A stretch of DNA of 38,967 nucleotides from a virus, in IMG/VR virus record IMGVR_UViG_3300045996_001092, positions 1 to 38,967 of that record; one strand, given 5' to 3'. A program made the translations under genes and the position numbers. How positions within the stretch are numbered: the first letter of the stretch is position 1; every line of letters begins with the position of its first letter. Positions 35,616 through 38,891 of this stretch are shown piece after piece. The notes below the pieces were generated by a model. That model ran no database searches. It had not been told where the DNA came from and saw only the letters and a list, made by a program, of their open reading frames with translations.

Positions 35616-36302
35616 TCATGCGGCCTCCTTAAACTTGAGCAAGGGCGACAAGTGCCGCGACTGCCACGCTTGGAACTTGTCCGTTGCCAGCGGCTGCAAT
35701 GCGGTCCATCCGATAGGCCAATCCATTAACCACTCCTGCGCTTCCGGGGTCACTTGACCAAATACCGTCCTCCAGGCCCTGCATGAAGGATGCTTTTGCA
35801 TGGAAGGAGCGCAGTAGTTCCCTTGGGTCGTCGGCGTATGCAAGTAGCCAATGCCGCTCCCGAATGTGGTCGCCACCCAGGTCTTTCGCGGCAAGGGAAA
35901 TCGCTCGGGTTTCGTAACCCATCTCGTCGAGGTCATCTGCTGCGCGGTCAATTGCGCGTCTTTGGACGTTCTCGGCAAAGACGTACCGGGGAGCGACATC
36001 TGCCACGATCCGTCTTTGCTCCGGCCAGAGATCGTCCGCAGTGTTTTTCCCCGCAGCCGCAGAGGAATAGGCTTGACAGGGAAACCCGCCAGATACGATG
36101 TCAACCACCCCTCGCCAGGGCTCTCCGTTGAAGGTGCGGATGTCGCTCCAGATGGGGAAGGGCTCAAGGATGCCGTCATCCTGACGCCGCTCAAGGATGC
36201 GGGCTGGATAGTCGCTCCATTCAATGGCGCAGACTGTTCGCCACCCAAGGAGCTTTGATGCGAGCAAGCCGCCCCCAGCGCCCGCGAAACACGCCAGTTC
36301 AT
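35616..36302 (-). CDS. Overprinted frame on the methyltransferase gene
   Basis: A 228-codon open frame, shifted against the methyltransferase, starting four bases after it and ending 13 bases beyond it. Its N-terminal two thirds are Ser/Pro/Arg-rich and may be just a high-GC shadow. Its end is not random: LHTPTTQGNYCAPSMQKHPS, then GQVTPEAQEWLMDWPIGWTA and LQPLATDKFQAWQSRH match a motif set (EWLMGWPIGWT) that I know from C-terminal parts of many phage proteins, often called methyltransferase. So this region may be coded in both frames. Start unknown; a shorter product from an internal start is likely if it is made. Confidence 0.45.
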   Translation of the reverse strand: MNWRVSRALGAACSHQSSLGGEQSAPLNGATIQPASLSGVRMTASLSPSPSGATSAPSTESPGEGWLTSYLAGFPVKPIPLRLRGKTLRTISGRSKDGSWQMSLPGTSLPRTSKDAQLTAQQMTSTRWVTKPERFPLPRKTWVATTFGSGIGYLHTPTTQGNYCAPSMQKHPSCRAWRTVFGQVTPEAQEWLMDWPIGWTALQPLATDKFQAWQSRHLSPLLKFKEAA

Positions 36303-36306
36303 TCAT
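35629..36306 (-). CDS. dcm: C5 cytosine DNA methyltransferase
   Basis: A compact 225-residue enzyme. Motif I is FAGAGGG (7-13), motif IV GGFPCQ with the nucleophile Cys77, motif VI ENV (112-114), motif VIII HIRERHW (148-153), and motif X GNGQVP (208-212). The target recognition region between VIII and X is only about 45 residues, much shorter than in host enzymes. It methylates cytosine in a short site, probably to guard phage DNA from host restriction. Start overlaps the stop of the gene upstream (ATGAATGA). A second open frame covers nearly the whole gene. Confidence 0.88.
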   Translation of the reverse strand: MNELACFAGAGGGLLASKLLGWRTVCAIEWSDYPARILERRQDDGILEPFPIWSDIRTFNGEPWRGVVDIVSGGFPCQAYSSAAAGKNTADDLWPEQRRIVADVAPRYVFAENVQRRAIDRAADDLDEMGYETRAISLAAKDLGGDHIRERHWLLAYADDPRELLRSFHAKASFMQGLEDGIWSSDPGSAGVVNGLAYRMDRIAAAGNGQVPSVAVAALVALAQV

Positions 36307-36627: not shown

Positions 36628-36851
36628 GCTTGCTCCTCGGCACAACGGCGGATGGCCTCGGCCAGCTTGAGAGCAAACGCCTTGTTGATCGTCAGGCGGA
36701 CAGAGCCCCAGTACTCGACGTTCTCCGGCGTGGTCGTGCGGATCTCGACACAGCCCAAGCTATCGGCGTCAGGGCCAACTTCGATATAGGTTCCGCGGTC
36801 GTCGTCGTAGACGCGGCGGATGGTTTCCAGGCTCACGCGGTCGTCGTTCAT
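36624..36851 (-). CDS. Small conserved phage protein
   Basis: A 75-residue protein. LETIRRVYDDDRGTYIEVGP, then ENVEYWGSVRLTINKAFALK and a final helix LAEAIRRCAEEQA form a mix of strands and helix. I recall similar small phage proteins without a function. The start at 36851 overlaps the P-like stop (ATGA). Confidence 0.65.
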   Translation of the reverse strand: MNDDRVSLETIRRVYDDDRGTYIEVGPDADSLGCVEIRTTTPENVEYWGSVRLTINKAFALKLAEAIRRCAEEQA

Positions 36852-37408
36852 GCTGCAACCCTCCGGCAAAGCATCCGGTCCAGCCGCAGCAGTTCTGCGA
36901 CTTCATCGCCACCAGCACACGCAACGGCGTTGGCAATGGCGCGTTTGAGCGGGTTCAATCCGGCGTTCTCGGCTTCCTCCCGCTTGGCGAGCGCTTCCCG
37001 CGCCTTCTCCAAGGCTTCGTTGCGGCGCTTGTCGCGCAGCTCCTGGCTCATCTCCAGCATCGGAGCCGACACAGGCGGGCGGTACACCTCGCGGGGCTTG
37101 GCGGCAGCGCACAGGGCCACGAACTGCGGCAGGCTGGGGGGAAACTCCGGGTGCGCCGTCATGCACCGGCCAAGCGCCGTCTTAACGTGCCCAGCGTCGA
37201 ATTCCCGCAGACCATGCGCCCACACCTGGCGAGCGCTGACCACGCCGGAATCCTCTCCGCTCTCCGTCTGTTCGCCAGACGAGAACTTGGACAGGAACAG
37301 GTTGCCGTAAAAGCCGTGCATGACCTTGAACACGTTGTTCACGGCATCGGTCGGCAGGGCTTCGCGTTGCGGGCGGAATGCCGCGCTCGGGTCAATTGGT
37401 TTCAGCAT
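36848..37408 (-). CDS. P-like replication protein (helicase loader)
   Basis: A 186-residue protein. NNVFKVMHGFYGNLFLSKFS, then VSARQVWAHGLREFDAGHVK and PEFPPSLPQFVALCAAAKPR match the N-terminal half of lambda P-like proteins, which bring host DnaB to the origin-bound O protein. The C-terminal part is a basic coiled coil (LRDKRRNEALEKAREALAKR). It overlaps the O-like gene by 17 bases, the lambda O-P order. Confidence 0.8.
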   Translation of the reverse strand: MLKPIDPSAAFRPQREALPTDAVNNVFKVMHGFYGNLFLSKFSSGEQTESGEDSGVVSARQVWAHGLREFDAGHVKTALGRCMTAHPEFPPSLPQFVALCAAAKPREVYRPPVSAPMLEMSQELRDKRRNEALEKAREALAKREEAENAGLNPLKRAIANAVACAGGDEVAELLRLDRMLCRRVAA

Positions 37409-38129
37409 CGATGTAGTCCGGGGGTTGTTGCCCGAAAATCGTTCGGGCGGCGGCGGCGTACTTGCCGGGGGCGGGGGGGCGGGAGTTGTTCTTGGGCTTC
37501 CGGTCGGCGACGTAGATGGCCTTGAAGCCACGCCAGGAGTTTTCGGTGCTCTCCCGAATTGCCTGCTCCAGCGTGTAGCCAGCAATTCCCGCCTCGCGGA
37601 TAAACCCACGGATCGCCGTCACCGTGATCGGGGCTTTCTGTTTCGTGCGAAGCCGTTTGAAGTCGCGCAGCAACTCCGGGTCAAGTCCGGCCAGCAACTC
37701 ATCAACCTCTGAGGGTTCTTTGATGGTTTCTGATGGTTCTTGATGGTTAGTGTGACTCTGTGTCACGGGTCCCGTGACAGGCTGACACTGGTCCGGTGAC
37801 TCTGTGTCACGGGTGGGTGACACTGTGTCAGGGGTGACAGGCTGGCACTGGTGACTTTGTGTCACTGGTTCGGAGTGGTTTTCCGGGGTAATTAGGTAGC
37901 TCGTATGCCGCCCCTCAGTACGAATCGCGCGGATCACTTGGGCTGCTTCTAGTTCTTGGATCGCGCGGATAACGGAGCGGGAGGACAGGCAGGTACGTTG
38001 AGCGAGGGTGCTGATGGACGGCCAGCACTCCCCCGCATCGCTGGCGTGGTCGGCCAAGGCGATGAGCACCGACTTGGCTGTCGGCGGTACTTGCAGTGGC
38101 CAGCAAAGGGCCATGATTCGATTGCTCAA
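37392..38129 (-). CDS. O-like replication initiator
   Basis: A 245-residue protein. TTG 38129 is chosen because MSNRIMALCWPLQVPPTAKS is the usual start of this family; ATG 38114 is the alternative. Residues 15-75 are a winged helix (KSVLIALADHASDAGECWPS; RTCLSSRSVIRAIQELEAAQ). Residues about 85-136 are a Gln/Pro/Thr/Ser-rich linker whose DNA forms the iteron array. The C-terminal part (TVTAIRGFIREAGIAGYTLE; NSWRGFKAIYVADRK) is the domain that meets helicase loaders in such proteins. It should bind the iterons and open the origin. Confidence 0.85.
   Translation of the reverse strand: MSNRIMALCWPLQVPPTAKSVLIALADHASDAGECWPSISTLAQRTCLSSRSVIRAIQELEAAQVIRAIRTEGRHTSYLITPENHSEPVTQSHQCQPVTPDTVSPTRDTESPDQCQPVTGPVTQSHTNHQEPSETIKEPSEVDELLAGLDPELLRDFKRLRTKQKAPITVTAIRGFIREAGIAGYTLEQAIRESTENSWRGFKAIYVADRKPKNNSRPPAPGKYAAAARTIFGQQPPDYIDAETN
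37721..37750 (+). repeat. Three tandem 10-bp repeats beside the iterons
   Basis: TGATGGTTTC, TGATGGTTCT and TGATGGTTAG follow one another without a gap, two bases before the first iteron. The array has 57 percent AT in a 62 percent GC region, so it is a fitting DNA unwinding element. Confidence 0.8.
37752..37869. other. Iteron array, predicted phage replication origin
   Basis: Six 19-bp units start at 37752, 37774, 37796, 37817, 37834 and 37851. Units 1 and 3 are identical, GTGACTCTGTGTCACGGGT. Units 2 and 5 are GTGACAGGCTG(A/G)CACTGGT, unit 4 GTGACACTGTGTCAGGGGT, unit 6 GTGACTTTGTGTCACTGGT. Most have inverted arms GTGAC-N5-GTCAC. Spacing is 22, 22, 21, 17, 17. They lie inside the O-like gene, as the lambda origin does, next to an AT-richer tandem repeat. 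Initiator binding is inferred. Confidence 0.85.
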
Positions 38130-38142
38130 GTGAACTGCCTGA

Positions 38143-38592
38143 TTACCTCGCCACCACCAGGCGCATATCGCCAGGCTCAATCGGCGGGGTGTCCGGGAGG
38201 TTGAGTGCTTCGCCGTTATAGATCCACGTTTCCTCGTAGTCGTCGGGAAACTGAGGGGTGGGAGCGAAGTAGCGCCAGTCGCATTGAGTGAAGGCCAGAA
38301 CACCCTCGTAGTTCTCAAAAGCGTTCCACAGCCAATTCATATGGGCCGGGCCAAAGCAAAAGAACTCCCGGGAGTTACTGGCGCGGTAGTCGGCCATCTC
38401 CGAATGGAAACGTCGCTCGACTCGCTGGAAGTCGGCTACCTCGATGTAGAGCAACACCCGAAACGGGCGGGGCACCCCGGATGCGTTTGACAGCTCCCTG
38501 GCGCGAGCGTGGGGGGCGCGCTCCGTGCAGCCGATCTTGAAATGACAGGGCATCGCTTCATTGCCCAGCAGATAGACGAAGCCGTAATTCAT
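38143..38592 (-). CDS. GIY-YIG nuclease-family protein (T5orf172-like)
   Basis: A 149-residue protein. YGFVYLLGNEAMPCHFKIGC, then TERAPHARARELSNASGVPR and FRVLLYIEVADFQRVERRFH, SREFFCF are the order of motifs in T5orf172/MUG113-type GIY-YIG domains: first motif GFVYLL, then FKIG, the Arg helix, and the late acidic/His parts. The end (IYNGEALNLPDTPPIEPGDM) is separate. It is at the head of the replication operon; role may be DNA processing or mobility. Confidence 0.8.
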   Translation of the reverse strand: MNYGFVYLLGNEAMPCHFKIGCTERAPHARARELSNASGVPRPFRVLLYIEVADFQRVERRFHSEMADYRASNSREFFCFGPAHMNWLWNAFENYEGVLAFTQCDWRYFAPTPQFPDDYEETWIYNGEALNLPDTPPIEPGDMRLVVAR

Positions 38593-38891
38593 GCTTGCGT
38601 CCCCATGCTCTCCAGGAGCCCATGCAGCCGTCCGATGCGCTTGAAGTACCTGCGAGCCATCTGGACATCGCCGCGAGCCATAGCGGCCTGCATGAGGACG
38701 CAGGCGCGGTCGATGATCCCGGCGAGGATTTCAGGCGTCAGGGCGTCGTCGCGGTCTTGCAGGACTTCGCCTACGCCATGAGGAGGAGCTTTCTCGCAAC
38801 CCGTCGCGCTTGCAATGTCGCAAACTACTGAAAAGTTGGGAGAAGTCCGCTCGATGGAACGGACAGGAGTTGCGGTAGCTGCGTAGGGCAT
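38589..38891 (-). CDS. Hypothetical early protein
   Basis: A 100-residue protein; CAGGAGTAACC precedes ATG 38891. A flexible N-terminal half (ATATPVRSIERTSPNFSVVC) is followed by helices LTPEILAGIIDRACVLMQAA and MARGDVQMARRYFKRIGRLH. No family recognised. Its stop overlaps the GIY-YIG start (ATGA). It is the first complete gene of the replication operon in this window. Confidence 0.65.
   Translation of the reverse strand: MPYAATATPVRSIERTSPNFSVVCDIASATGCEKAPPHGVGEVLQDRDDALTPEILAGIIDRACVLMQAAMARGDVQMARRYFKRIGRLHGLLESMGTQA

Follow-up and report, generated by a model that had tools for sequence, protein, structure and literature searches.

Genes at the locus

The window analysed here, an IMG/VR virus record in its full length of 38,967 bp, carries near its right end and on the minus strand a gene for an O-like replication initiator (Table 1), which starts at TTG, as does its relative in contig L002 (a GTG at 38135 is also possible), and stops at 37392. 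By its matches to phrog_678, phrog_391 (E 2.3e-20), and HTH_36 and by its modelled winged helix, the product belongs to the PHROG "replication initiation O-like" / HTH_36 phage initiators. The next gene, encoding a P-like helicase loader, shares its first 17 nt with the end of the O-like gene; its start was placed by a homologue in contig L003. In the AlphaFold2 model of the initiator, the winged-helix domain (recognition helix at residues 49-61, pLDDT about 97) and a second helical domain are confident, and the linker that holds the repeats described below is of low confidence. Sequence and fold searches of solved structures with the initiator returned only generic winged-helix proteins (MarR, Fur, TubR, and CodY).

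The Pfam family of lambda O (PF04492, Phage_rep_O) does not include the window protein, which matches HTH_36 instead. Lambda O itself matches PF04492 at 5.7e-36, pairwise BLASTP between the two proteins gave E 0.55, and a profile built from the family of the window initiator found no match in lambda O. Therefore the window protein can be said to work like lambda O, and it has not been demonstrated to belong to that family. Elsewhere in the window, at 35616-36306, a long alternative-frame ORF is overlapped by the gene for a C5-cytosine methyltransferase, which at only about 225 aa may be a short or eroded enzyme.

Table 1. Positions of the genes, iterons, and array units, and of relatives with a variant array unit
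Feature	Position	Strand	Sequence or basis
O-like replication initiator gene	37392..38129	-	PHROG 678 O-like, E 1.7e-25; Pfam HTH_36, E 1.3e-14
P-like helicase loader gene	36848..37408	-	PHROG 109 P-like helicase loader, E 3.4e-7
Recognition helix of winged-helix domain	37944..37982	-	AlphaFold2 helix 49-61; covariation with iterons
Iteron-linked Arg codons	37977-37979 and 37965-37967	-	within recognition helix
Iteron 1 (distal, 17-bp spaced)	37851..37865	-	GTGACACAAAGTCAC
Iteron 2 (17-bp spaced)	37834..37848	-	GTGCCAGCCTGTCAC
Iteron 3	37817..37831	-	CTGACACAGTGTCAC
Iteron 4	37796..37810	-	GTGACACAGAGTCAC
Iteron 5	37774..37788	-	GTGTCAGCCTGTCAC
Iteron 6 (adjoins array)	37752..37766	-	GTGACACAGAGTCAC
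3-nt gap, last iteron to array	37749..37751	-	palindromy of upstream 15-mer peaks at gap 3 in 46 relatives
Array unit 1	37741..37748	-	AACCATCA (TGATGGTT on plus strand); 5' end 37748
Array unit 2	37731..37738	-	AACCATCA; 5' end 37738
Array unit 3	37721..37728	-	AACCATCA; 5' end 37728
Array unit 4, diverged, 11 bp from unit 3	37710..37717	-	AACCCTCA; 5' end 37717
Variant-unit gene, Pseudomonas PseuP_222	L333 1223-2119		
Variant-unit gene, Salmonella SI8	L331 2007-2639		
Variant-unit gene, E. coli mEp044	L329 1382-2374		

Iterons and the AACC array in the window

Six 15-bp cores of the form GTGAC-N5-GTCAC, three of them perfect and three with one mismatch, lie within the O-like gene, about 260 nt downstream of its start; all other matches to this pattern in the 39-kb window have at least two mismatches. 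A preliminary description of the DNA had reported six such repeats within 118 bp, and all six were recovered over that same span, with spacings of 22, 22, 21, 17, and 17, that is, 17, 17, 21, 22, and 22 along the gene, followed by the array. Its repeat unit of 19 bp had to be reduced to the conserved 15-bp core. The two sub-types that it saw as alternating follow the order A-B-A-A'-B'-A, and a fixed alternation was rejected, as the copies in two relatives (L011 and L014) do not alternate.

The repeats that read TGATGGTT on the plus strand are (G)AACCRTCA units on the coding strand, 10-12 bp apart. The three tandem 10-bp copies noted earlier stand, and a fourth, diverged unit had been missed. 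It was also correctly noted that this array is AT-richer than its surroundings: its GC content is 43%, against 60% for the iterons and 62% for the whole record, which makes it only moderately AT-rich. Tandem Repeats Finder independently calls tandem repeats at both the iterons and the 10-bp array. Of the features expected of a lambda-type origin, the locus has several inverted-repeat iterons inside the initiator coding sequence, an AT-richer tract beyond the last iteron on the C-terminal side (its melting being inferred), and a P-type helicase loader encoded beside the initiator.

The repeats are constrained at the DNA level. The spacings of the iterons are mostly not multiples of 3, the copies occupy all three codon phases, and equal DNA encodes VTQSH, QCQPV, and DTESP. 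When synonymous codons in the gene were permuted in 5000 trials, 0.73 cores arose on average and no trial exceeded 5, against the six observed. Since six iterons are found where the synonymous null predicts 0.73, and in all codon phases, the repeat has been selected as DNA.

Conservation of the layout in related phages

Over a hundred other phages were compared with the window. DNA and protein searches found distant relatives including Stenotrophomonas phage CUB19, Pseudomonas phages PotUPM1 and Itty13, and E. coli phages mEp010, which matches the window at the DNA level, and mEp044. An alignment-based scan added 80 further O-like genes, scans for iteron pairs and for the array gave at least 119 contigs each, and one scan of genome contigs yielded one distant relative only. 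For counting, 59 dereplicated O-like genes were picked by protein similarity, except L014, which entered via its iteron. Some candidates were discarded: the single iteron matches in L012 and L013 are isolated sites in unrelated ORFs and were taken as chance, and the array scan also picked up some simple repeats of the ACCGTAACCG type that have nothing to do with initiators.

The order observed in common along the gene is two intervals of ~17 bp, then three intervals of 21-23 bp, then 3-4 nt and three to five (G)AACCRTCA units. All short intervals precede all long ones in 30 of the 36 genes having both spacing classes, the six mixed-order genes carrying an extra long interval at the distal end, and the same order holds in 7/7 genes of the separately selected GTGAC set. 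The distance between iterons and array is regular too: palindromy of the upstream 15-mer is highest (3.8 of 5 arm pairs versus 1.35 at control positions) when the 15-mer ends 3 nt ahead of the first AACC, and no other gap from 0 to 15 exceeds 2.4 arm pairs (46 O-like genes with an AACC chain of at least three).

An array of at least three units is present in 46 of the 59 dereplicated genes, against 5.9 expected under synonymous-codon permutation; about one relative in five has no array of this size. The units fall into all frames (63, 67, and 38 by codon phase). Inside the array, 51 of 57 Ser codons (89%) are TCA, compared with 88 of 813 (11%) elsewhere in the same genes (P 5e-38), these genes having been chosen without regard to the array; the figures are 123/138 and 200/1732 in a wider dereplicated set, selected partly on the array pattern itself. 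The arrays average 44% GC in genes averaging 61%, and array-bearing genes sit in more GC-rich loci than genes without the array. The AACC array is kept beside differing iterons (GTGAC, CCGCA, GTCCG, GTGCA, CGGCA, and others) and occurs with three kinds of helicase partner, P-like in the window, IstB/DnaC-like in L002, and DnaB in L014. Thus its presence is linked to the initiator or to a host factor and not to one loader.

Among the relatives the linker protein drifts and the DNA layout persists in different reading frames. This is the outcome that the preliminary description had named as the test of its proposal that one stretch serves as both protein and origin. The switch in spacing from 22 to 17 bp that it pointed out is conserved too, and its "two binding registers" are a fair description (two helical turns versus 1.6). 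The iteron sequence, which it had not recognized, is in fact common, occurring in many phages including mEp044.

Several loci depart from this layout. L003, from a related phage, is 92% identical to the window in DNA along the P gene and the final 30 codons of O, and 98% identical over 64 bp near 38.87 kb; the whole O-plus-origin segment (window 37392-38842, L003 3299-4093) is replaced by a different initiator gene, which has its own AACCC repeats in 11-bp steps and all three frames. L011 (688-785) and L014 (1891-2009) encode near-identical initiator proteins with five and six iteron copies, respectively, and are a natural copy-number variant of the same origin. In the initiator genes of PseuP_222, SI8, and mEp044 (Table 1) a variant unit, AACCNGTCA or AACCNATCA, replaces AACCRTCA, and the steps are longer or irregular. 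Initiator-type genes in L215, L234, L251, L271, L289, L297, L307, and L313 form a sub-class with a different, longer gap: between their TGCAA/TTGCA palindrome (GGGTGCAA..TTGCACCC) and the AACC array stands GCATAT or GCAAAT. Large arrays of the GTGAC-TTTCT-GTCAC type, with 22-23, 34, and 45-bp steps, are found in L023, L039, L049, L067, L072, L074, L075, L078, and L101; no winged-helix domain of the window initiator family was detected in their ORFs, which possibly represent another initiator class sharing the half-site.

Correlation between the recognition helix and the iteron

Among initiators with less than 85% domain identity, the mutual information of residues with the iteron class peaks at one position, which falls in the AlphaFold2-modelled recognition helix. 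This position is Arg in 41 of 42 initiators with GTGAC iterons and in 2 of 48 with other iterons (P 5e-22); below 50% domain identity the counts are 24/25 and 1/10. The analysis used dereplicated sequences and no full tree model. The GTGAC set was for the most part picked on its DNA pattern only, and the domain profile comes mostly from proteins without that Arg, and therefore the result is not built in. As judged from this correlation, the iteron sequence tracks the winged-helix recognition helix, a different iteron going with a change of one amino acid. By analogy, the rule linking Arg to GTGAC is physically plausible: in CRP, an Arg at a similar place (SRETVGR) reads TGTGA half-sites.

Discussion

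Our data indicate, with a probability that we put at about 0.82, that the locus is the origin from which a tailed phage replicates in theta mode and that it lies within the gene for its own initiator, a lambda-like origin of the HTH_36/PHROG O-like class. The lambda-type iteron origin proposed in the preliminary description is supported by the assignment to the PHROG O-like proteins, the P-like neighbor, and the relatives, the start of replication remaining an inference.

In the mechanism that we propose, O-like dimers would bind the six 15-bp pseudo-palindromic iterons via the winged-helix domain, the recognition helix SSRSVIRAI reading the GTGAC half-sites. The array-proximal iterons, 21-22 bp or about two helical turns apart, would place the dimers nearly on one face, and the distal ones, at 17 bp or about 1.6 turns, about half a turn off. 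The complex is predicted to strain the DNA and to open the (G)AACCRTCA array starting 3 nt past the last iteron; the exposed strand would be held, most likely by O itself, and the P-like loader from the overlapping next gene would then place the host DnaB. What the sequences show is the layout, its conservation, the constraint on the DNA, and the covariation of helix and iteron; in the absence of experimental data, the binding of O, its dimers, the unwinding role of the array, the loading of the helicase, and the start of replication at this place are inferred. The covariation of iterons with the helix lends only indirect support to dimer binding and replication start, and the GC skew has no sharp switch at 37.7 kb and provides no usable origin signal. 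The order of events, in which the iterons are bound, the tract is opened, and P brings DnaB, is that described for lambda (PMC5043065) and for Stx phages (PMC7466680). Plasmid Rep proteins and RctB are initiators known to bind repeats as single strands (PMC4081077, PMC10797057).

The most serious competing explanation accepts the iterons as an origin and takes the AACC array as a duplex binding site for a loader or host factor instead of an unwinding element. The array contains AACC and is not strongly AT-rich, and its 10-12-bp period, close to one helical turn, would suit a protein stacked on one face of the duplex. However, it is placed as the AT-rich unwinding tract of lambda is, directly past the last iteron, its helicase partners are of three kinds, and no DnaA box with one mismatch or fewer was found within 37.3-38.3 kb; we regard the duplex site as unlikely without setting it aside. 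Decidedly less probable is that the iterons are operators for initiator autoregulation, incompatibility, or copy control and not a replication start. Proteins with this winged-helix fold are mostly repressors, and iterons often serve both origin and operator or copy-control roles, which we counted in favor of operators. Yet these iterons lie mid-gene, in no promoter position, are tied at a fixed gap to the AT-richer array, and share the layout of lambdoid origins.

Selection acting on the RNA or on the protein is rated lower still. Each GTGAC-N5-GTCAC repeat could fold as a 5-bp stem with a 5-nt loop, a small hairpin in the O mRNA for translational control, but no Rfam match was found anywhere in the window, and neither the helical-turn spacing nor the covariation with the DNA-recognition helix would follow, so that we consider hairpins very improbable. 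The repeats might also be a by-product of a Gln/Thr/Pro/Ser linker selected for its amino acids, and the linker is indeed of low complexity and modelled with the low confidence expected for disorder. This last explanation, already refuted by the synonymous-site tests, is the one we grant the least: the spacings ignore the reading frame, equal DNA yields three different peptides, iterons and array both exceed their synonymous nulls, and the Ser codon choice in the array is extreme.

We tentatively extend the origin reading, at somewhat less than even odds, to a two-layer grammar shared by hundreds of phages. In its first layer the array would be a sequence-specific single-strand unwinding element, kept in fixed register beside interchangeable iterons and recognized by a conserved initiator surface. 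In the second, a helix code would set the iteron, with Arg specifying GTGAC, Lys a GAA-type iteron, Asn or Gly after Gln or His CCGCA, and so on.

Phage origins are rarely predictable from sequence. If our interpretation is correct, the layout locates origins in many uncultured phages and predicts the pairing of initiators with origins, and with it the competition among co-resident phages or satellites. It would also offer a tractable system for studying the transfer of an initiator from duplex iterons to the melted strand. Neither the AACC array nor the short-short-long spacing rule nor the helix rule was described in the open-licence literature searched, and a search with the array 8-mers gave unrelated matches only; we do not claim priority.

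Comparison with known origins

Iterons inside an O-like gene are already known from lambda and from Stx phages, with repeats also noted in MD8. The lambda ori likewise lies inside the initiator gene, with inverted-repeat iterons in linker codons, an unwinding tract on the C-terminal side, and a P gene that overlaps and follows O (PMC5043065). In contrast to the six iterons of the window, it has four, spaced 20, 24, and 23, and a purine-rich AT tract without an AACC array; its PF04492 initiator has no detectable similarity to ours. The origins of Stx phages P27/933W share the number of six iterons within O, two of which are weakly bound yet needed for replication; they differ in that their iteron sequence and AT tract are of the lambda type, and the accessible part of the source describes no AACC array (PMC7466680). 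For Pseudomonas phage MD8, repeats were noted within the O-like gene beside a P-like gene, whereas the portion of that paper at hand describes no repeat sequence, spacing, array, or recognition rule (PMC8508860).

Iteron plasmids and V. cholerae ori2 are similar in having short repeats in the unwinding element, namely the RK2 13-mers and the RctB motif G/A-ATCA, which resembles the RTCA part of AACCRTCA; there the initiator binds the repeats as a single strand, which for the AACC array is only a proposal (PMC4081077, PMC10797057). Their initiators are unrelated, and the available sections of these papers do not describe the origins as lying inside the initiator gene. Gene O of mEp044 encodes an HTH_36 initiator, and its iterons, at steps of 22 and 23, share the core GTGACACAGAGTCAC exactly, with AACC following after 3 nt; it differs from the window in having three iterons only, and an AT-rich stretch in place of the regular AACC array.
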